Assembly: GCF_019634845.1 (NCBI RefSeq)
Contig: NZ_JAHCAQ010000002.1
Span: 186,001 to 250,000, forward strand
Length of the DNA: 64,000 bases
Source of the DNA: Dokdonella sp.
GTDB lineage: Bacteria > Pseudomonadota > Gammaproteobacteria > Xanthomonadales > Rhodanobacteraceae
Direction of reading: 5' to 3'
Shown here piece by piece: positions 37,133 to 49,534 of the stretch. Under the pieces are notes generated by a model. That model did not search any database. It was not told where the DNA came from and worked only from the letters and a program-made list of their open reading frames with translations. The position numbers and the translations under genes were made by a program. Within the stretch, counting starts at the first letter, position 1, and each line of letters starts with the position of its first letter.

Positions 37133-38905
37133 TCATCGCGATGCCGGCAACCGATCGCCGGCGCGCCAGCCACCCGCAGCGAGTGCATCGAGCAACGCAC
37201 CGACACGTGGCCGCGTGTCGGTGCCATGCACGGGCAGCACGACCACGTCGCCCGCGCGTGCCCACGCGAGGAGTTGCCGCACGCCGGCGTCCTCATCGAC
37301 CGGCCCGCTCAGGTCCGGCTCGGCGACGCCATCCGCGAGCAGCGCCGCGCGCAGCAGCGCCGGGACTGCGCCGGGCTCACGGCCGCGCAGGTAGCTGGCG
37401 ATTTCCTTGAGCACGATGCGCGCAGGGCGCGCCGCGGCAACCGTCGTGGCGAGCTCGCGGATCTCGGCGTCGCTGCGGTTGCCGACCTGGCCGAGCAGGA
37501 TACCCAGCCGCGCCGGGCGCAGCCCTGCGGCGACTTCGAGCAGGCCGCGCATGCCATCGGGGTTGTGGGCGTAGTCGACGAGCACATGCACGCCGCCGAG
37601 CTCGACATGCTGCAGCCGACCGGGATTGTCGGCCGGCGTGGCGCCGAAACTTTGCGCAACGGCGGCGATGACGCCAGGCGCGATGCCGAGCGCCTGCGCA
37701 GCGAGTGCGGCCGCGGCGATATTGGCGAGGTTGTAGCGCGCGGTGCCACCGAAACCGAGCGGCATCGCCGCAGCTGCACCAAGGTCATGCTCGTGGCCGT
37801 CCGCGTGCAGCACGAGGCGACCCGCGCGCAAGCCGCAGGTGGCCTCGCCCCGCGCGCGCCCGGCGCGCAGCAGCGGCGCATCGGCGTCGAGCGCAAACCA
37901 CGCGCGGCGCGCCGTGATCGCCTGCTGCCCGGCCTGCGCCACGAGCAGCGCGTCGTCGGCGTTGAGCACGAGCGTGGCCGCAGCGCCGAGCGCGCGCGCG
38001 ATCGTCAGCTTGGCCTGCGCGAGTGCTTCCAGCGTATCGATGCCGTACTCGCCGAAATGGTCGTCACTGACGTTGGTGACGATGCCGACCTGCGCATGCT
38101 GCACGGCCAGGCCGCGCCGCAGCAGGCCGCCACGCGCGGTCTCGAGGATCGCCAGGTCGATGCCCGAGGCGAGCAGCGCGGTGCGCGCGCCGACCGGGCC
38201 CGAGTAGTCGCCGCTGGCGAGCGCAACACCATCGCGATAGACGCCGTCGGTGCAGGTGTGCGCGACGTGCAGGCCCTGCCCGCGCGCGATGGCCGCCAGC
38301 AGGCGCGTGGTCGTGGTCTTGCCATTGGAGCCGGTGACGAGCGCGATCGGCACCTCGCTGAGCGCGTCCCACTCGAGCGCCGCCGCTGCCGGCAGCGCCG
38401 CCAACGGCCAACTGCGCGCAGCGGCGCCGGACCCGAGCGTCAGCGTGGTGTCATCCTGCAGCACGTTGCGGCCGCGCGCCTGCGCCGCCGCGTGCAGCGC
38501 GAGCAGCGCCGGATTGCGTTCGCTGGCGGCATGGGCCTGCAGGGTGGCCAGTGCGCTGGCTTCGTCCCACGCGGCGGGGTGACCGGGCGCATGCAGGCGC
38601 GCCCACGGCCCGGCGCCGAGCGCGCTGGCGAGCGCCCACTCGTTGACTTCGGTGGCGGTCAGCAACTGGTCGACGGGCGCGGCAAAGGCGAGCACGAGGC
38701 CATTCGCGGCGCTGCGCACGCTGGTCGCGGCCGCAGGCCAGCCCAGCGCCTGCCGCGCACGCGCGAGCTGCGCGCGCCAGCGGTCGGGCAGATCGGTCGC
38801 GACCGCCACGCCGACCGTCTGCAGCACCGCGCCGGTCGCCGCGAAGTGCAGGTTCCAACCGGTCAGGCGCCGCGAATCCTCGAACGGCAGCGACGGCAGG
38901 CTCAA
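37133..38905 (-). CDS. Mur-ligase-family protein paired with cyanophycin synthetase (CphA'-like)
   Basis: 590 residues from a TTG start that overlaps the cphA stop (TTGA). An N-terminal domain of about 180 residues (TGWNLHFAATGAVLQ, VNEWALASALG) precedes a complete Mur-ligase module with P-loop TGSNGKTT (191-198), ETARGGLLRRGLAV and VDYAHNPDGMRGLLE, like the C-terminal half of CphA. There is no ATP-grasp domain, so it cannot by itself do both cyanophycin reactions. Second synthetase-like genes next to cphA are known in several non-cyanobacterial groups; their exact task is not settled. It may extend or modify the polymer or prime it. Confidence 0.85.
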   Translation of the reverse strand: MSLPSLPFEDSRRLTGWNLHFAATGAVLQTVGVAVATDLPDRWRAQLARARQALGWPAAATSVRSAANGLVLAFAAPVDQLLTATEVNEWALASALGAGPWARLHAPGHPAAWDEASALATLQAHAASERNPALLALHAAAQARGRNVLQDDTTLTLGSGAAARSWPLAALPAAAALEWDALSEVPIALVTGSNGKTTTTRLLAAIARGQGLHVAHTCTDGVYRDGVALASGDYSGPVGARTALLASGIDLAILETARGGLLRRGLAVQHAQVGIVTNVSDDHFGEYGIDTLEALAQAKLTIARALGAAATLVLNADDALLVAQAGQQAITARRAWFALDADAPLLRAGRARGEATCGLRAGRLVLHADGHEHDLGAAAAMPLGFGGTARYNLANIAAAALAAQALGIAPGVIAAVAQSFGATPADNPGRLQHVELGGVHVLVDYAHNPDGMRGLLEVAAGLRPARLGILLGQVGNRSDAEIRELATTVAAARPARIVLKEIASYLRGREPGAVPALLRAALLADGVAEPDLSGPVDEDAGVRQLLAWARAGDVVVLPVHGTDTRPRVGALLDALAAGGWRAGDRLPASR

Positions 38906-41697
38906 TCTTCGCTCTCGCGGGCGAGAAACAGGCCGCGCGCATCGCGGCTGACCTCGCCCAGGTTCGCCAAGCTGGCTTCGTCGAAGCTGGCTTCCTCGAC
39001 CACGGGCGGCGGTGCCGCGCGCACAGCGGCCGGCGCCGGCGCACCTTCGGGGCGGAACTTGATGATCTGCTTCCACGAGCGCACCAGCGCATCGGCAAAT
39101 ACGAGCAGCAGATCCCCCTGGCGCGCCATCTGCAGGGCGGCGTCGATCGCGGCCTGCTCGTCGGGAATGAGCGAGATCGCGTCCTTGGCCACGCCGGCCG
39201 CCTGCAGCGCGCGGGAGATGATGAGCGGCACCTCGTCACCATCGCGGCCACGCAGATTGTCGTCGCGCCGGCAGATGTAGTGGTCGAACTTGCCGGCCGT
39301 GGCCTGCGCGATCGCGGCGAGGTCCTCGTCGCGCCGGTCGCCGGGTCCGGCCAGCACGACGATGCGCCGCCCAGCCACGTCGAGGCGCTGCGCGAGGTCG
39401 GCCATCGCCGCCACCGCGGCTGCGTTGTGGCCATAGTCGAACAGCACCTTGAACGGGTGTTCGTCGAACACGTTCATGCGCCCCGGCACCTGGAAGAAGG
39501 TGGTGCCGAAGGTACGCAGGCCCTGACGGATCGCGTCGAGCTTGATGCCGAGCGCAAACGCCATCGCCGCCGCGAACATCGCGTTCTGCACGTTGTGCAG
39601 GGCGCGGCCTTCGAGCGTGGCCGGGATCAGGTGCGTCCACAGCAGCGGGATGTGGCCGCCCTTGTCGTACAGCGTGATCATCGTGCCGTTGACGCCGGCC
39701 TCGAGTGCGCAGGCGCGGCCACCCGCGCGCACGTGCTCGCGCACGAGCGCGTGCGAGGGGTTCATCGTCACGTAGCAGATCACCTTGGCGTCGGTGTAGC
39801 CCGACATGCGCAGCACATTGGGATCGTCGGCATTGAGCACGGCGCAATCGCGCGCCACCTCGACCACGATGCGCTTGACCTCGGCCAGTTGCTCGAGCGT
39901 GTCGATGCCCTTCATGCCGAGATGGTCGCTTTGCACGTTGAGCACCGCGCCGACGTTGACGTGGCGCATGCCCAGGCCCGCGCGCAGCAGGCCACCACGC
40001 GCGGTCTCGAGCACGGCGATGTCGATCGATGGATCGGACAGCACCATGCGCGCCGACACCGGCCCGGTCATGTCGCCCTCCACCGTGCGCTGGCCGTCGA
40101 TGTAGACGCCGTCGGTGGTGGTCAGTCCCGGCGTGTAACCGGCCATCTTGGTGATGTGGGCGAGCATGCGCGCGGTGGTGGTCTTGCCATTGGTGCCGGT
40201 CACGGCCGCGATCGGCACGCGCGCGGGCGTGCCGGGCGGGAACAGCATGTCGATGACGGGACCGGCGGCATCGCGCGGCGTGCCCTCGCTGGGCGAGACG
40301 TGCATGCGGAAGCCCGGCGCGGCGTTGACCTCGCAGATGCCGCCGCCGACCGTGCGGTAGCTTTCGGCGATGTTGGGCGAGAGGAAATCGACGCCGCCGA
40401 CGTCGAGGCCGATGGCGCGGATCGCGCGCACCGCCATGTCGCGGTTGTCGGGGTGGATGATGTCGGTGACGTCGGTGGCGGTGCCGCCGGTGGACAGGTT
40501 GGCGGTCGAGCGCAGGTACACGGTCTCGCCATCCGCGGGCACCGAGGCGGCGCTGTAGCCCACGCGCTGCATCATCTGCTCGGCCTCGCGGTCGAGCTGG
40601 ATCCGCGTGAGCACCTTCTCGTGGCCGATGCCGCGCCGCGGATCGGCGTTGACGCCGTCGACCAGCGCCGCGATCGTCGACGTGCCATCGCCCACCACGT
40701 GGCCCGGCGTGCGCCGGGTGGCGGCAACGAGTTCTCCGTTGACGACGAGCAGGCGATGGTCGGCGCCGTCGAGGAAGTTCTCGACGATGACCGAGCGCGA
40801 GTGTTCGCGCGCGGCATGGAAACCGGCCCGCACCTCGTCGTCGTTCATCAGCCGGATCGAGATGCCGCGGCCGTGGTTGCCGTTGTAGGGCTTGGTCACG
40901 ACCGGATGGCCGAGCCGGCGCGCCGCGCGCACCGCAAGGTCCTCGCTCTGCACGAGTTCCTGGCGCGGCACCGGCAGGCCGAGCGAGGCGAGGATCTTGT
41001 TGGTCTCCTCCTTGTCGCTGGCCAACTCCACCGCGATGTGTGAGGTCCGGCCCGTCACCGTGGCCTGGATGCGCTGCTGGTACTTGCCGTGGCCCAGCTG
41101 CACGAGTGACTGTTCGTTGAGGCGCAGCCACGGAATGCCGCGTTCCTCGGCCGCACGCACCAGTGCCGCGGTCGAGGGGCCGAGCGCGCGGTGCTGCGCA
41201 TAGCGGATGAACTCGTCGCGTGCGGTCGGCCAGTCCCAGTCGTCGGGCAATGCCCCGCGCGTGCGCAACTGCACCGGCAGCAGCGATTCGAGCAGCCTGA
41301 GCGCGAGCTCGCCCGCGGCGATGCCTTCCTCGCGCTGCGCGTATTCGTACACCACCGTGTACACGCCCGGGCGACCCTCGGCGGTGCTGCGCGTCTTGCC
41401 GAAGGTGACGGCCTCGCCCGCGATGTTCTGCACCTCGATCGCGACATGCTCGAGCACGTGGCCGAGCCAGGTGCCCTCGTCCTCGCGCATGCGGCGGATG
41501 AAGCCGCCCGGCTCACGGTACGAACAGCCATGCTCGGCCAGGCCCGGCAGCGCCGCGACGAGGCCGTCGATGAAGGACGCGCCGAGACGCGCCGTCGGCC
41601 AGTGCTCGAGCTCGCCCAGGTCCAACTCCAGCCGGATGACCGGAAAATGGGCGTAGAGCGACGGCCCCACGTACACCGAACGATCCAGGATGCGCAT
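38902..41697 (-). CDS. cphA: Cyanophycin synthetase
   Basis: Polymerises Asp into a backbone and attaches Arg to each beta-carboxyl group, using ATP for each step. 931 residues: N-domain (1-160), ATP-grasp domain (about 220-485, VTKPYNGNHGRGIS at 267-280, EVNAAPGFRMH at 456-466), then the Mur-ligase-like domain with P-loop TGTNGKTT at 500-507, ETARGGLLRAGLGM and LFDYGHNAAA. Length and order match CphA1. The last 45 residues after KFRPEG are a Pro/Ala/acidic tail. Arg substrate is established for the family; this protein was not tested. It couples to the Mur-ligase protein downstream. Confidence 0.95.
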   Translation of the reverse strand: MRILDRSVYVGPSLYAHFPVIRLELDLGELEHWPTARLGASFIDGLVAALPGLAEHGCSYREPGGFIRRMREDEGTWLGHVLEHVAIEVQNIAGEAVTFGKTRSTAEGRPGVYTVVYEYAQREEGIAAGELALRLLESLLPVQLRTRGALPDDWDWPTARDEFIRYAQHRALGPSTAALVRAAEERGIPWLRLNEQSLVQLGHGKYQQRIQATVTGRTSHIAVELASDKEETNKILASLGLPVPRQELVQSEDLAVRAARRLGHPVVTKPYNGNHGRGISIRLMNDDEVRAGFHAAREHSRSVIVENFLDGADHRLLVVNGELVAATRRTPGHVVGDGTSTIAALVDGVNADPRRGIGHEKVLTRIQLDREAEQMMQRVGYSAASVPADGETVYLRSTANLSTGGTATDVTDIIHPDNRDMAVRAIRAIGLDVGGVDFLSPNIAESYRTVGGGICEVNAAPGFRMHVSPSEGTPRDAAGPVIDMLFPPGTPARVPIAAVTGTNGKTTTARMLAHITKMAGYTPGLTTTDGVYIDGQRTVEGDMTGPVSARMVLSDPSIDIAVLETARGGLLRAGLGMRHVNVGAVLNVQSDHLGMKGIDTLEQLAEVKRIVVEVARDCAVLNADDPNVLRMSGYTDAKVICYVTMNPSHALVREHVRAGGRACALEAGVNGTMITLYDKGGHIPLLWTHLIPATLEGRALHNVQNAMFAAAMAFALGIKLDAIRQGLRTFGTTFFQVPGRMNVFDEHPFKVLFDYGHNAAAVAAMADLAQRLDVAGRRIVVLAGPGDRRDEDLAAIAQATAGKFDHYICRRDDNLRGRDGDEVPLIISRALQAAGVAKDAISLIPDEQAAIDAALQMARQGDLLLVFADALVRSWKQIIKFRPEGAPAPAAVRAAPPPVVEEASFDEASLANLGEVSRDARGLFLARESED

Positions 41698-41820
41698 GCC
41701 GTCCTCCCCCTGCGAGCGAAGTCCGATCCTAGCGCGTCCACGCGGCTCGTGGGCAGGCCCGCGCCCGCGAGCGGCGACGCCGCCAGCGGCGTCCGCCGGC
41801 GCACGCCACCAGCACCGGCC

Positions 41821-42662
41821 TCAGTTCAGGGCACGGTCGCCGAAGTCGTCAGCAAAGATCAGGTCGGCGTCGCCGTCCGACCCGACGCGCGTGAGCACCG
41901 CATCGTTGTTCCACATGCCCACGGCAACCGGATCGCTCGATGCCGTACCTGCCAGCACCGCCTGGTGGCCGACGAAGCGCAGCTTGTCCCAGGCGGTGAA
42001 ATCCGCCAGCTGGGTGCTCTGGTAGGCGGGGGGCGTCGACGAACACGGCACCGCCGACACCGAAACCCGCATCGGGTGCTCCATTGGCGTTCAACTGGAT
42101 CACGAAACCATGCCCCTGCGGGTGGACCTGTCCCGACCCGGACACCTCTCCGACGAGCCAGATCCTGCCATCGATGCGCACGTCGACACCGCTCGACCAG
42201 TACTCCAACGCACCGACATAACAGTACGCGCACGAGGCGACACCGCTGCCCATGTTGCCGACGAAAGCTGTGGTCGCCGTCGGGCGTGGCGCCGATCACC
42301 ACGATGCGGCCCTGCGAGCCGATGGCGACCCCGGCGACCGTGGTCAGCTATGCGTCCTTGAGGACCATGCCGTTCACACCGAAGCCGGTCACGCGCTGAC
42401 CGTTGCGGTCGAGCCGCACGAGACCGATGCGCGAGCCCAAACCGCCCGGCGCCGCGCCGCCGGGCAAGTCGATCGCCACCACATAACCGCCGCCCATGGT
42501 GCGGGCGAGCCCCGCGAGTGCGTCGTATTGGTCGTCGCCGCCGGGCTCGAACAGCCGCTGCCAGCCGGCGCTGCCAAAGCTCGTGTCGACCACGGGAGCT
42601 TCGGCGCGGGCGCCCGCGGCGAGCACGAACAACACGATGCACAGCAGGCAACGGACCGTCAT
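41821..42662 (-). pseudogene. Decayed secreted delta-60-repeat protein with IFADDF tail
   Basis: Starts intact at ATG 42662 with a signal peptide (CLLCIVLFVLAAGARA) and a delta-60-type repeat (VDTSFGSAGWQRLF, later GFGVNGMVLKDA), then meets an in-frame TAG at 42350-42348. Coding potential continues (TTVAGVAIGSQGRIVVIG), shifts frame near a TTT run at about 42263 (GNMGSGVASCAYCYVGALEY, PDAGFGVGGAVFVDAP), and shifts again at a run of six C near 42030, ending LIFADDFGDRALN. One nonsense mutation plus two frameshifts make it a pseudogene unless the homopolymer shifts are sequencing errors. It sits between cphA and cphB and splits the cyanophycin cluster. Confidence 0.8.
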
Positions 42663-42867
42663 GGCGGAGCTCGCCCAACAAGATGTCGACAGGCGTGACA
42701 ATACGCAGGCCGGCAACCACTCGGGACAGGCTCGGCGCCGATCCGCGCGCGTCGGTGCGATCAGGCGGGCGGCACCCGGACCTTGCACGTCTTGCGCGCG
42801 GTCGGGCGCGGCCAGCCAGCAAGGCCGCGCATTGGGCAGCGACGCCGGCGCTGGCGGCGGCGCCGCC

Positions 42868-43713
42868 TCAGTGGTGCTTGGAGCCCGCGAGCCGACCCGC
42901 CGAGGCGCGCCGCGTATGCAGGTTGAAAGTCGCGCCGGCAACGAGGATGTGGATCTTGAGGCCGAGCAGACACACCGGCTCGTCGGCGTCGGCCTGGTCC
43001 ATCGACGAAAACTGCAATTCGCTGGCATCGACCACGGTGACGCCGCCCGAGCCTTCCACCTCGAGCGTGTTGTCGGGGCGGATGAAGGCGGCGGTGTCTT
43101 CGTCCAGGCCGATGCCGACCGCGAACGGGTTGTAGGCCAGCGCCGCGAGCAGGCGGCCGAGACGGTCGCGCTGGCGGAAATGCTGGTCGATCACGAAGCG
43201 GTTGGTCAGGCCCAGTCCCGGCGCCAGATGCACGCTCGATGCGGTCGGCGAGCCGCCCTCCTTGCCGAAGGCGATCATGTGCTCGGACAGGATCGAGGCG
43301 CCGGCACTGGTGCCGCCCACGTGCATGCCCTGCGCATTGCGCAGCCGGATCAGCTTGGCGATCGGCGTGCCGCCAAGGAGCGTCGACAGCCGCAACTGGT
43401 TGCCGCCGGTGAAGAACACGCCGCTGGCACGCTCGATGTGCTGCCAGCGGTTGGCCTCGCCGGCGTCGCGGCGCGTGTCGAAGTCGAGCGCGGTGACCTG
43501 GCCGGCGCCGAGCTCCGCGAACAGGCGCTCGTAGCGCTCGCCCGTGGTGGCGAGCTGGCTCGCGGTCGGAATGACCACGATGTCGGCGGCATTGCCGCCG
43601 CACAGCTCCACGAAGCGGCGCAGGATGCGCGGATCGTGGTCCTTTTCCTCGGCGCCGCCGATCGGCACGATCCAGCCGCGTTCATTGCCTTCACTGACCT
43701 TGCTTGGACACAT
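42868..43713 (-). CDS. cphB: Cyanophycinase
   Basis: Serine exopeptidase of family S51 that cuts cyanophycin into beta-Asp-Arg dipeptides. 281 residues. Nucleophile Ser136 in GGTSAGAS, with FFTGGNQLRL before it and the conserved DQHFRQRDRLGRLL and GIGLDEDTAAFI segments. No signal peptide, so it acts on intracellular granules. A GGGGGGAAG sequence precedes ATG 43713. It lies 74 bases after iadA on the same strand and upstream of cphA, with a pseudogene between. Confidence 0.94.
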   Translation of the reverse strand: MCPSKVSEGNERGWIVPIGGAEEKDHDPRILRRFVELCGGNAADIVVIPTASQLATTGERYERLFAELGAGQVTALDFDTRRDAGEANRWQHIERASGVFFTGGNQLRLSTLLGGTPIAKLIRLRNAQGMHVGGTSAGASILSEHMIAFGKEGGSPTASSVHLAPGLGLTNRFVIDQHFRQRDRLGRLLAALAYNPFAVGIGLDEDTAAFIRPDNTLEVEGSGGVTVVDASELQFSSMDQADADEPVCLLGLKIHILVAGATFNLHTRRASAGRLAGSKHH

Positions 43714-43787
43714 CGCGCCCGCTTCCCCCCGAATTCATCGCACAAGTCTATCGCCACCGGCAGCGGCGTGGCGCCGACGGTACTGCC

Positions 43788-44966
43788 TCAGCGGGCTTCG
43801 AACCAACCGTGCCGGCAGACACGGCCGTCCTGCAGGTGGATCGCGCCACGCGCGATCACGAGCTGCGCGTTGCCGGCCGCATCGAGCGCCACGAGGTCGG
43901 CATCGGCGCCGACCGCGATATGGCCCTTGCCGGCCAGCCGCAGCAGCCGCGCCGGGTTGCTCGTGAACGGCGGCAGCGCCTGCTCCAGCGGCACGCCCTG
44001 CGCCAGCAGCCCGCGCAGCGTCGCCAGCAGCGCGCCCGACTCACCCACCTCCATGCTCACGACGCAGCCGTCGCCATCGAAACAGGGCAACGAGCCGCCG
44101 GCATCGGAACTGATGCTCAACCGTTCGGCCGGCGCGCCGCTGGCCTGATAGCGCAGGAAGGCCGCGACCGCGTCCCAGGCGTCCTCGCCCTCGTCGACCG
44201 GAAACGCGGTGACGTCGATGTGGACACCCTGCCGTGCCAGTTCCAGCGCCTCATCGAACAATGCCTTGCGGCGGTTGACGTGGGTTGGCTGGAACGTGCG
44301 CGCCGGCAGCTCGGTTTCGGCCAGCGCGCGGCGCACGAAATCGAGTCCGCGCGCACCATCGCCCAGATGCAGGTGGAGGATGCCGGCCTTGCCGGTCATG
44401 AGGCCGGCCACGTGCGCATCGGCGGCGACGCGCATGAGTTCGTCGAAACCGGGCTGGCTCGAACGATGGTCGCTGATCGCCACCTCGCCCACGCCGATCA
44501 GCGGCTCGATCAGCACGAGGTCGCCGCGCACGCTGCCGGTGAGCGTCGCCGGCGGCAAGTGGTAGCCGCCCACGTAGGCATAGGCGCTGAGCCCTTCCTC
44601 GCGCAGCGCATGGACCTGGGCAAGCAATTCGCGCGGCGTGCGGACCACGTCGTCGGTACCGAGCAGGCCGACCACGGTGGTGACGCCCGCGCGCGTGAAG
44701 CGCGACAGCGCCTGCGGCGGCACGCGCGAGCGGAAGCCGGCCTCGCCGCCACCGCCGGTGACATGCACATGGCCATCGACCAGCCCGGGGATGAGCCGTT
44801 GCCCCTGCAGGTCGAGCGTGCGCACAGCCAGTGCGCCGGGCAGCTCGAGCGCGTCGCGGCCGAGCCACAGGATGCGCCCGCCACCGAGCAGAACCTCGCA
44901 CGTCCCCAGCGGCGCCGGCGCGTACACCTGTGCGTTGCGCAGCAGAATGAGGTCGGTGGCGGTCAT
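43788..44966 (-). CDS. iadA: Isoaspartyl dipeptidase
   Basis: Amidohydrolase-superfamily enzyme that hydrolyses beta-aspartyl dipeptides, the step after cyanophycinase, releasing Asp and Arg. 392 residues. Metal ligands by alignment are His66 and His68 (DGHVHVTGGGGEAG), His200 (HLHLGDG), His229 (PTHVNR) and Asp288 (SSDAGG). At the position of the carboxylated Lys of E. coli IadA (GVK before CAISDHR) this protein has Glu161 (GVGEVAISDHR). GAGG upstream supports ATG 44966. First gene of the minus-strand cyanophycin set. Confidence 0.93.
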   Translation of the reverse strand: MTATDLILLRNAQVYAPAPLGTCEVLLGGGRILWLGRDALELPGALAVRTLDLQGQRLIPGLVDGHVHVTGGGGEAGFRSRVPPQALSRFTRAGVTTVVGLLGTDDVVRTPRELLAQVHALREEGLSAYAYVGGYHLPPATLTGSVRGDLVLIEPLIGVGEVAISDHRSSQPGFDELMRVAADAHVAGLMTGKAGILHLHLGDGARGLDFVRRALAETELPARTFQPTHVNRRKALFDEALELARQGVHIDVTAFPVDEGEDAWDAVAAFLRYQASGAPAERLSISSDAGGSLPCFDGDGCVVSMEVGESGALLATLRGLLAQGVPLEQALPPFTSNPARLLRLAGKGHIAVGADADLVALDAAGNAQLVIARGAIHLQDGRVCRHGWFEAR

Positions 44967-46536: not shown

Positions 46537-46650
46537 CGCGCGACCGCGGCCGGGTTGCGCGGGTGCGCCCAAGCCTCTAGGCTAAACGCTCCAACGCGAG
46601 CGAGAGCAATGCCACCAGGGGCATGAATTGCCGAGCGTGGCCAGCCTGTG

Positions 46651-47229
46651 ATGTTGTCTCCGGCGCAAGACACCGCAGCGCTGCTCCAGCGCTGCTCCAA
46701 TGGTGACGATGATGCCTATGGCGAGCTGTTCGAGCTGGTGTACACCGACCTGCATCGCCGTGCCCGGCGCTGGGGTGGCGGTCCCGGCGCAACGTTGTCG
46801 ACCACCGCGCTCGTCCACGAAACTTTCCTGAGCCTTGCGGGCAGCCGCATTGCGCCGAACGACCGCGCGCATTTCTTCCGCATCGCCGCGCGGGCGATGC
46901 GTCGCGTACTCATCGACGCCAGCCGGCGCCGCAACGCGCGCAAACGCGGCGATGGCCGCGAGGCGCTCACGCTCGACACCGGCCTCGTCGCTCCCGATCG
47001 CGAGCTCGACCTCGTCGCGCTCGATCAGGCGCTCGAGCAGCTCGCCACCAGCGAGCCGCGGCTCGCGCAGGTGGTGGAGCTGCACTTCTACGGCGGGCTC
47101 GAGTTCACCGAGATCGCGCGACTCATGGAGGTGTCCGAGCGCACGGTCGCGCGCGACTGGCGCGCCGCGCGCGCGCTGTTGCACCTCGCGCTGAGCGAGC
47201 AGGCCACGTCGACCGATGGCAACGCCTGA
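46651..47229 (+). CDS. ECF RNA polymerase sigma factor (Sig-70_X6 / ECF43-like)
   Basis: 192 residues. Region 2 includes LVYTDLHRRARRWGGG and TTALVHETFLSL, and region 4 includes LEFTEIARLMEVSERTVARDWRAARALL. This subfamily lacks an anti-sigma partner and is often encoded with a Ser/Thr kinase. In Vibrio parahaemolyticus EcfP and Xanthomonas EcfK, kinase-dependent activation of the sigma factor is established, and a Thr in region 2 is the phosphate acceptor in EcfP. The Thr in TTALVHE is the likely equivalent (inference). ATG 46651; GTG 46648 directly before it is also possible. It overlaps the kinase gene by 14 bases. Confidence 0.92.
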   Translation: MLSPAQDTAALLQRCSNGDDDAYGELFELVYTDLHRRARRWGGGPGATLSTTALVHETFLSLAGSRIAPNDRAHFFRIAARAMRRVLIDASRRRNARKRGDGREALTLDTGLVAPDRELDLVALDQALEQLATSEPRLAQVVELHFYGGLEFTEIARLMEVSERTVARDWRAARALLHLALSEQATSTDGNA

Positions 47230-49534
47230 CCCACGCCAGGCGCGCATCCTGCGTGCCGCACTGGATCTGTCCCCCGAGGCACGCGATGCCTATGTGGTTG
47301 GCGAGTGCGGCGACGCGCCGGCGCTGCTGGCGCGGCTGCGGCAACTGCTGGCGCTCGATGCCGTCACCGCCTTGCCGCTGGACCAGCCCGCCGAAGCATT
47401 CGCGGCGGAACTGCTGGCTGCCGACGGCGATATCGATCCGCGCCTGCGCGCCGGCGCGCGCGTCGGCCCGTACCGACTGGTGCGCGAGCTCGGCCACGGC
47501 GGCATGGGTTCGGTGTGGCTGGCGGCGCGCGATGATGGCCAATTCAGCCAGCAGGTCGCGCTCAAGCTGATCCGGCTCGGCATGGCCAGCGAACACGTCG
47601 AGCGCCAGTTCCGCCGCGAGCGTGCGCTGCTGGCGCGCCTGCAGCATCCCAATATCGCCCAGCTCATCGACGGTGGCATCGACCAGGGCGGCCAGCCCTG
47701 GTTTGCAATGGAATACGTCGCTGGCATCACGCTCGGCGCCTGGCTGGAGCAGGTCCGGCCCGGGCTGCGCGTACGCCTGCAGCTGTTCGTCAAGCTGTGC
47801 CGCGCCGTCGCGCACGCCCACCGCCAGCTCATCGTGCACCGTGATCTCAAGCCCTCCAACGTGCTGGTGCGCGACGGCGGCGAGCCCTGCCTGCTCGACT
47901 TCGGCATCGCCCGCCTGGTCGAGGACGAGGCGCCCGAGCACACGGCCACCGCGCAGCGCTTCCTCAGCCGCGACTACGCCGCGCCCGAGCAGTTGCGCGG
48001 CGAACCGGCCGGCACCTCGGCCGACGTCTACGCACTCGGGCTCATCCTGTTCGAGCTGCTGACCGGCCAGCGCTACCGCCGGATCCATGGCAGCAACGAG
48101 GTCACGCTGCGACCGAGCGCTGCGTTGGGCGCCACCGGCGCGACAGCGAGCACCGCCGACGTCAGTCGCACGCACCTGCGTGGCGACCTCGATGCGATCA
48201 CGCTGCGCGCGCTGGCCGAGGAACCGGCGCGTCGCTACGCCGACGCGCAGCAACTGGCCGACGACGTGCAGCGCCATCTCGACGGCAAGCCGGTCGAGGC
48301 GCGCCCGGACAGCCTGGCCTACCGCAGCGCCAAGTTCGTGCGGCGCAATCGCGCCGCGGTCGCGGTGGGGCTGTTCGGCTTCGCGGCCTGGTTCGCGGCC
48401 AGCAGCGTTGCGCTGTGGCAGGCGGCGCAAAAGAGCGCCGAGGCGGAACGCGCACGCATCGCGCTGCGCCAGTCCGAGGCCGCGCGCAACTTCGCGCTGT
48501 CGATGTTCGCGGCGGCCGATCCGGGCAAGTCCAAGGGAATGGCCACGACCACTGGCGAGCTGCTGGCGGCGGCTCGCGAACGCGTCACGCATGAACTCGA
48601 CGGCGAACCCGAGGTGGCGGCGGAGTTGCTCGACCAGATCGGCAACACCTATGTGTCGCTCGGCGAGCGCGACGCCGCCGGCGAGGTGCTGCGCGAGGCA
48701 TTGGCCTACAACGAGCGCAGCCGCCGGCCTTCACTCGCAGTCACTGCTTCAGCCGGCGGACGGCTGGCCTACTACACGTTCGAGAATGGCGATGCGGCAC
48801 GCGCGTTGGACGAGCTCGACTCGCTCGTCGCGCGCCTGCGGCGCAGCAACGACGCGGCACCGGCCGTCGCCGCGCAGCTGGCCAAGCTGCACGAGCTCAG
48901 GAGCAGCGTGCTGTACGCGACCGGCCGCAAGAAGGAATCGCGCGCGGCCGGACAGGCGGCGGTGGCGACCTGGGACCAGGTGGGCAGCCAGTATCCGGCC
49001 GAACGCCTGTGGGCCCGAATCAGCCTGGCCGATCTCGACGCTGGGCTGGGTCAAGGCGACAGCGCGCTGCAACTGGCCGATGAGGTGCTTGCCGCCCCCC
49101 TGTTGCAAGGCACCCAGGCGCCACCGGCGCTGCTGACCCAGGCGCGCGGCGTGCGCGTGCGCGCCCTGCAGGCGCAGGGACGCCATGCCGAAGCCGAACC
49201 GCTGCTGCGCGACACGGTCGCCGCGTTCACGGCGCAGTACGGCGCCGACGCCAGCATGACGCGCTACTGGCAGTTCCGCCACGCCGAGACCCTGCATGCG
49301 CTGAGTCGATTCGACGAAGCGCAGGCGGTCGCCGACGCCGTGCTGGCGCTGCCGCCCGATGGCACGGCCGCGTACCGGCGCATCCGCGTCGAGGTGCTGG
49401 CCGCAAGGATCGCGCGCGAACGGGGCGCAGCCGACGCCGGCATGCGCATCGCCGCCGCCATCGCGGCCGCCTGCGGCGAAGGCGGCAATGCCGAGCTGTG
49501 CGGCAGCGCCCGTGCGCTGGCCGCCGGCGGCTGA
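47216..49534 (+). CDS. Transmembrane Ser/Thr protein kinase with C-terminal TPR-like sensor
   Basis: 772 residues. A short N-terminal helical region is followed by a Hanks-type kinase domain: glycine loop ELGHGGMGSVWLA at 91-104, Lys117, HRDLKPSN at 208-215 and DFG at 228-230. One transmembrane helix lies at about 380-401, and a helical-repeat (TPR-like) domain from 405 to the end should be periplasmic. The kinase gene starts within the sigma gene, so the two are produced together, and the likely target is that sigma factor. The periplasmic repeat domain would sense the signal. Confidence 0.94.
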   Translation: MATPDPRQARILRAALDLSPEARDAYVVGECGDAPALLARLRQLLALDAVTALPLDQPAEAFAAELLAADGDIDPRLRAGARVGPYRLVRELGHGGMGSVWLAARDDGQFSQQVALKLIRLGMASEHVERQFRRERALLARLQHPNIAQLIDGGIDQGGQPWFAMEYVAGITLGAWLEQVRPGLRVRLQLFVKLCRAVAHAHRQLIVHRDLKPSNVLVRDGGEPCLLDFGIARLVEDEAPEHTATAQRFLSRDYAAPEQLRGEPAGTSADVYALGLILFELLTGQRYRRIHGSNEVTLRPSAALGATGATASTADVSRTHLRGDLDAITLRALAEEPARRYADAQQLADDVQRHLDGKPVEARPDSLAYRSAKFVRRNRAAVAVGLFGFAAWFAASSVALWQAAQKSAEAERARIALRQSEAARNFALSMFAAADPGKSKGMATTTGELLAAARERVTHELDGEPEVAAELLDQIGNTYVSLGERDAAGEVLREALAYNERSRRPSLAVTASAGGRLAYYTFENGDAARALDELDSLVARLRRSNDAAPAVAAQLAKLHELRSSVLYATGRKKESRAAGQAAVATWDQVGSQYPAERLWARISLADLDAGLGQGDSALQLADEVLAAPLLQGTQAPPALLTQARGVRVRALQAQGRHAEAEPLLRDTVAAFTAQYGADASMTRYWQFRHAETLHALSRFDEAQAVADAVLALPPDGTAAYRRIRVEVLAARIARERGAADAGMRIAAAIAAACGEGGNAELCGSARALAAGG

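Follow-up and report, generated by a model that had tools for sequence, protein, structure and literature searches.

A minus-strand block of four genes at positions 37133-44966 of a 64,000-nucleotide stretch of Dokdonella sp. DNA (contig NZ_JAHCAQ010000002.1, part of a 3.26 Mb assembly in 27 contigs; hereafter the window) encodes, in the order iadA, cphB, cphA1 and a Mur-ligase paralogue (hereafter the partner), what as a whole is best explained as a cyanophycin operon whose fourth protein is a CphA1-derived ligase built of an N and an M domain; we assign this reading a probability of roughly 0.8. Our confidence in the operon assignment is high, and we infer that the four genes form one transcript. 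The initial annotation of the window had described four same-strand genes here for a cyanophycin synthetase, a Mur-ligase partner, a cyanophycinase and an isoaspartyl dipeptidase, which is confirmed by our analysis. It overlooked two features, namely that the partner is without an ATP-grasp domain and that CphA1 has a conserved C-terminus of the form E-x-x-D. The features of the block are collected in Table 1.

Table 1. Features of the cyanophycin block in the window and the evidence on which each assignment rests. aa, amino acids; AF2, AlphaFold2.
Feature	Position	Strand	Evidence
iadA, isoaspartyl dipeptidase, 392 aa	43788..44966	-	TIGR01975 391.5 bits, cut-off 331.25 (NCBIfam)
cphB, cyanophycinase, peptidase family S51, 281 aa	42868..43713	-	TIGR02069 263.5 bits, cut-off 126.6 (NCBIfam)
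Open-frame remnants between cphB and cphA1, outside the pathway	41821..42668	-	in-frame stop, frame changes
cphA1, cyanophycin synthetase 1, 931 aa, N + G + M domains	38902..41697	-	TIGR02068 1104 bits, cut-off 850
CphA1 N-domain primer-making site C-x21-HxxEH, residues 58-84	41446..41526	-	motif match to published Cx19HxxEH
CphA1 G-domain loop GNHGRGI, residues 273-279, H275	40861..40881	-	N274, H275, G276, G278 invariant 44/44
CphA1 M-domain P-loop TGTNGKTTT, residues 500-508	40174..40200	-	T500 to T507 invariant 44/44
CphA1 C-terminal tail, residues 907-931, end E-S-E-D	38905..38979	-	conservation; weak hairpin in AF2 model
Partner, CphA1-like N domain + complete Mur-ligase M domain, without ATP-grasp, 590 aa	37133..38905	-	Pfam, NCBIfam, alignment, AF2 fold
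Partner N-terminal domain, residues 1-180, interpreted as a CphA1 N domain that has degenerated and lacks HxxEH	38366..38905	-	hhalign, Foldseek
Partner P-loop TGSNGKTT, residues 191-198	38312..38335	-	G192, N194, G195, K196, T198 invariant 48/48

The CphA1, CphB and IadA assignments of the initial annotation held in profile searches, each protein scoring above its curated cut-off. The active-site residues it had reported were recovered by alignment in all four proteins, and the loss of catalytic residues that it had named as grounds for doubt was not observed, since these residues are kept. In CphB, the GTSAGAS motif, the Ser of which is presumably the nucleophile, lies in register with GTSAGAA in 3en0 and GTSAGAS in 7uqv. 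The best solved relative of IadA is 8dqn, against which the five zinc ligands (H, H, E, H, H), E73 and R230 match; from the agreeing residue numbering we infer that 8dqn is the Leucothrix mucor enzyme, whose zinc and substrate residues are listed in the available part of PMC10206079. CphA1 matches positions 1-860 of the 862 in TIGR02068, with N, ATP-grasp G and Mur M domains over its full length, and its best solved relatives are 7lgm (aligned over residues 1-884) and 7lgn (1-894). The G-loop His (H275), the Lys of the M P-loop (K505) and the Asp-His pair of the M domain (D591, H592) are invariant in 44 of 44 sequences. The HxxEH part of the N-domain site is present, with a Cys spacing of 21 against the published 19. 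According to the passages of PMC9262961 that we could consult, the Cx19HxxEH site cuts the polymer into primers and occurs in 83% of the published nr70 CphA1 set, and is thus not universal.

Given these families, the likely role of the block is the cyanophycin cycle. Going by family, the G domain of CphA1 would build the Asp chain, its M domain would add Arg to each side chain and its N domain would cut the product to give new primers, while CphB would free beta-Asp-Arg dipeptides and IadA would split them.

The partner is one of two less ordinary features of the block. Against TIGR02068 it scored 308 bits over positions 477-847 only, well below the cut-off, and is therefore not a CphA1. Pfam recognised Mur_ligase_M and Mur_ligase_C but no ATP-grasp domain. 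The AF2 model (mean predicted local distance difference test score, pLDDT, 95.2; predicted template modelling score, pTM, 0.94) was compared with the PDB by Foldseek, and the first five matches were CphA1 chains, over about 880 columns including gaps. Among the matches listed, TM-scores normalised by the query were 0.77-0.81 for four CphA1 chains, 0.52-0.69 for six others and 0.42-0.52 for MurE, whose match can extend over no more than the M part. In an hhalign comparison, the partner linker 127-164 aligned to CphA1 residues 169-208 (E 1.6e-4, probability 50). Because of the Pfam result, the fold matches and this linker, the partner is most likely a CphA1 from which the ATP-grasp core has been removed and the N-M pair kept, its Mur ligase part being of the Arg-adding type and intact. 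MurE and other Mur ligases share its middle and C-terminal ligase domains and the ATP site, but its N domain matches CphA1 and not the Mur substrate domain. Its start is most likely a TTG at 38905, which overlaps the cphA1 stop as TTGA and gives the 590-residue protein, rather than a GTG at 39076.

A first alignment (29 partners and 37 CphA1s) and a second set of 48 partners agreed in that the P-loop G-N-G-K, E255, D282-H283, K299, R430, D444, H447, R477 and R507 are invariant in 29 of 29 and 48 of 48 partners, T197 being replaced by Ser in 5 of the 29. In the second set, 35 columns are invariant, 33 of them in the M domain, while HxxEH was found in the first 190 residues of none of 83 partners. 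The specificity loop is conserved in a way of its own. Where CphA1 reads D-D-x-x-RGR (Asp in 86 of 96 and in 72 of 96 at the two positions just before x-x-RGR), the partner reads K-E/D-L/M-x-x-Y-L-RGR, with the acidic residue one column earlier (Glu or Asp in 77/83), one extra residue, and Tyr two positions before the R of RGR in 59/83. This lid loop aligns in both proteins with what we take to be the DNPR motif of MurE, and the difference suggests that the second substrate, or the way in which it is held, has changed.

A quick tree was built from 83 M domains, made up of a random sample of 32 of the 83 partners and 26 of 74 CphA1s bearing the C-terminal tail described below, together with 22 other CphA1s, the two window proteins and one MurE. 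The partners grouped together (Shimodaira-Hasegawa-like approximate likelihood ratio, SH-aLRT, 91), and so, separately, did the tail-bearing CphA1s (100), which included L079, a sequence whose gene holds a run of N. The nearest named rows were Rhodanobacter and Dyella, in keeping with the Xanthomonadales origin proposed for this DNA from its sequence.

CphA2 was also considered for the partner and rejected: there is no match to the ATP-grasp G domain (Pfam found none and the NCBIfam alignment begins past it), and the M P-loop and lid residues are present and invariant. Of the families that had been suggested for comparison, CphA1, CphB and IadA are borne out for three of the proteins, and the partner is neither CphA1 nor CphA2. 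Cyanobacterial CphA2 is, like the partner, a relative of CphA1 cut down to one working ligase site; as described in the accessible text of PMC9427784, it works with G and has lost the M P-loop and lid, so that the partner is its mirror image. Second synthetase-like genes of this type should not be named CphA2, since they hold the opposite half of the enzyme. A Sideroxydans 'CphA2' beside CphA1 (PMC5178258) and two cphA copies in activated sludge (PMC10687191), both known to us from excerpts, are adjacent synthetase-like pairs in Proteobacteria and possibly represent the same arrangement as in the window; these excerpts give no domain description for the second copy.

The block recurs in relatives. 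A cphA1 match at E <= 1e-100 was found in 75 of 249 genomes of the order. Among 67 loci where CphA1 and partner are both present and no less than 2.6 kb of upstream sequence is available, a cyanophycinase lies within 2.5 kb upstream on the same strand in 55, and all four genes form a single block in 30; because these loci were mostly chosen by likeness to the partner, the counts are no estimate of frequency among all CphA1 genomes. The repeated gene order argues that the arrangement is not due to chance. By record title, a partner adjoins CphA1 in seven phyla, many of the named loci being metagenome bins, and plasmid records of Ruegeria, Shinella and Roseateles list cyanophycinase, cphA and a 'Mur ligase family protein' in matching order. 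A profile scan of the class, in which two candidates per genome were scored, found the CphA1 cut-off passed by 25 of 377 genomes; reading the rows by eye, we assigned the second copies in these 25 as ATP-grasp-less (11), longer and matching only to about profile position 726 (7), or neither (7).

In completeness the block is less exceptional than the initial annotation had it. Besides the 30 partner-chosen loci with all four genes, the parts of Sharon and Schmeing 2023 (PMC10206079) open to us report cphA1, cyanophycinase and iadA all clustered in 37 of 231 RefSeq genomes having the three. Being recurrent both in relatives and in published clusters, the four-gene block is of a known kind and, as a cyanophycin set, ordinary. 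The published clusters share three families with the window, and the Leucothrix mucor IadA was solved from one of them; unlike the window, they come with no mention, in the text available, of an ATP-grasp-less partner or a CphA1 tail. In Lysobacter capsici AZ78, of the same bacterial order, cyanophycinase is followed by cyanophycin synthetase in what PMC4742617 describes, in the portion at hand, as a two-gene cluster; that portion does not mention a partner, iadA or the tail.

The second overlooked feature lies at the C-terminus of CphA1. Partner-adjacent CphA1s carry about 45-50 extra residues that are variable save for a DERG(V/I)-type stretch and an E-x-x-D end. Two sets, defined by partner adjacency alone, were compared. 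The last residue is Asp in 72 of 73 sequences of the first set and 54 of 55 of the later set, and position -4 is Glu in 71/73 and 53/55, respectively. The exceptions are L079, the sole row of the first set not ending in Asp, and L069 (Asp at -4), and in the later set L237, which in that frame has a seemingly unrelated end, and L284 (Asp at -4). In the first set, L085 may repeat L049 (G038), and some sequences are still close to duplicates, L065 and L138 being an example. The later set was fetched by CphA1 likeness from the order and phylum scans; it comprises 66 stretches minus 6 that repeat earlier ends and 5 without an adjacent partner, includes two from G893, and omits first-set genomes, the partial matches G786 and G896, and two of another kind (G890, G935). 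Those 5 stretches all end in E-x-x-D, two of them at contig ends and three with a partner elsewhere in the genome, and three plasmid-borne CphA1s end likewise. Among 23 CphA1s from the first loci that are not followed by the partner, Asp is terminal in 2 (L071, L072); both fall within the tail clade, and a partner was not found in either genome. The phylum scan supplied 22 more CphA1s or CphA1-like main subunits belonging to other clades, none of which ends in Asp (L176, open at its end, was left out, and a few of these genomes also gave first-set loci).

The distance from R-G to the end ranges from 8 to 14 and residues -2 and -3 vary, in a set that was chosen partly by its end. The terminal Asp is encoded by GAC in 41 cases and GAT in 32, followed by TGA (38), TAA (18) or TAG (17). 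Shine-Dalgarno-like cores occur in 20 of 73, and the gap to the aligned partner start, the starts being approximate, is at least 15 nt in 31 of 70. Because of the mixed Asp codons, the three stops, the few Shine-Dalgarno-like cores and the varied spacing, the tail end seems to be selected as protein. By the same evidence, and because the tail is kept where the partner is not adjacent, we rejected the idea that the terminal Asp arises as a side effect of the overlapping genes or of a ribosome-binding site for the partner. Terminal Asp is infrequent in the neighbours (CphB 9/66, IadA 2/37, partner 6/83). In the AF2 model, the tail forms a weak hairpin (pLDDT 73-77), the linker and the last three residues being under 50. 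A PDB search with the tail as query gave no match, and a literature search of limited scope, covering listings, the openings of abstracts and selected passages, returned nothing on the tail, an ATP-grasp-less synthetase or a split synthetase. The R-G-V part of the tail is retained in the two solved synthetases nearest in sequence, those of Acinetobacter baylyi (7lgm) and Tatumella morbirosei (7lgn); unlike the window CphA1, both are without HxxEH on our alignments, as the extracts of PMC9262961 also state for TmCphA1.

Several observations weigh against the block as we read it or against the role of its fourth protein. The partner was found in 7 of 16 genomes of the genus, the window's own included, which makes for a patchy cluster, with 4 of the 16 under 90% complete. 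Two assemblies, G319 and G377 (96 and 99% complete), contain a tail-bearing CphA1 and no partner that we could find, which suggests that the partner can be dispensed with. In hhalign, roughly the first 120 partner residues were left unaligned to CphA1, and they are assigned from the fold match. Because the specificity loop differs from that of CphA1, the amino acid used by the partner may not be Arg. Finally, Ralstonia eutropha has two synthetase homologues, yet no polymer was observed in the wild type, as reported in the available passages of PMC11362209.

Chances are about even that the partner is a live ATP-dependent ligase which charges chain ends for the tail-bearing CphA1; if active, it would provide a new means of working with a biopolymer that is rich in nitrogen and of interest to industry. 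It is improbable that the partner is a regulatory or decaying paralogue free of the need for catalysis: its branches are longer than those of CphA1 in the tree and it was not found in G319 and G377, but decay would not leave the catalytic residues invariant across phyla.

For the tail, we tentatively lean towards a docking peptide, in which the DERG hairpin and E-x-x-D would hold the partner, CphB or the granule to CphA1, with the terminal Asp as a carboxylate anchor. Tail and partner co-occur, and the hairpin is modestly confident in the model; however, the tail is kept in G319 and G377, and an acidic anchor alone leaves unexplained the absence of terminal Glu in both sets, the sole row ending in E being L079 with its run of N. 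Somewhat less likely is that the partner ligates Arg or some other amino acid onto Asp or onto chain ends, resulting in a modified cyanophycin or a free dipeptide. The conserved change in the specificity loop would fit such an activity, whereas the adjoining CphB and IadA belong to families that act on standard cyanophycin and on its dipeptide, respectively.

We give docking more weight than a protein-primed start, which we regard as doubtful. Here the E-x-x-D end of CphA1 would be the acceptor, and the cyanophycin backbone would begin with the C-terminal Asp of the synthetase itself: the partner (or the CphA1 M site) would add Arg to the terminal Asp, the G site would add the next Asp and the N site would free the polymer. 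That it is the partner which loads Arg on this Asp and so starts the chain is, in our view, unlikely. If true, this would be a protein-primed storage polymer with the ATP-grasp-less partner as dedicated initiator ligase, comparable to the initiation of glycogen by glycogenin. The near-invariant Asp and Glu, the rarity of terminal Asp in CphA1s without an adjacent partner and its absence from the 22 of other clades, the signs of selection on the protein and the low terminal Asp in the CphB, IadA and partner controls speak for it. So does the published chemistry: as far as the sections consulted of PMC9262961 and PMC9427784 go, cyanophycin is extended at a C-terminal Asp. A protein ending in Asp is in form an M substrate, and protein priming is therefore proposed, with the partner as the likely charging enzyme. 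Against it, a CphA1 that has the N-domain site already produces primers itself, the model shows disorder in the last three residues, and the tail-bearing sequences share descent, so that they are one clade rather than independent draws and may simply inherit a docking end. The start of the first cyanophycin chains is an unsettled question, and the accessible passages of PMC9262961 report that primer dependence cut the yield in E. coli tests. A near-invariant terminal Asp on a large synthetase clade, together with a single-site paralogue, allows a direct and cheap test of protein priming.

A different tandem synthetase-like pair was encountered at 23 loci in other genomes of the class (L075-L077, L287-L306). 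Its first gene has the N-site H-E-H in 23/23 and the G-loop His in 21/23 but the M Asp-His pair in only 2/23, and its second gene has the M loop and Asp-His in 23/23, Gln for the G-loop His in 22/23 and H-E-H in 2/23, so the catalytic residues look divided over two subunits. A loose literature search on this pair gave none among the matches listed.

Other loci vary in the second ligase gene. On two Chloroflexi contigs (L136, L137), cphA1 is met by a convergent gene for a Mur-ligase protein whose match to the partner is confined to the M part. Two Deinococcus plasmids (L161, L162) each have a second 'Mur ligase family protein' whose N-terminus, judged by eye, is CphA1-like, and in one of these cases it lies near cphA, an isoaspartyl peptidase gene and cyanophycinase. 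The partner gene is present at L056 (G035), in an assembly where no CphA1 was found, and in G783, of the same genus, the CphA1 and partner genes lie on separate contigs. At L028 (G004), a second partner match, C-terminal only (query 346-603, 57% identity), lies about 11 kb from the first.

Within the window, cphB is separated from cphA1 by 1.17 kb in which broken open frames lie; in 62 relatives the median gap is about 54 bases, and it exceeds 1 kb in 2. The intervening minus-strand remnants comprise a signal-peptide-like start and pieces that by eye look like what we take to be delta-60 repeats. A Pfam search of two pieces gave no match. Outside the block, at 46648-49534 on the plus strand, an extracytoplasmic function (ECF) sigma factor adjoins a Ser/Thr kinase with tetratricopeptide (TPR) repeats.

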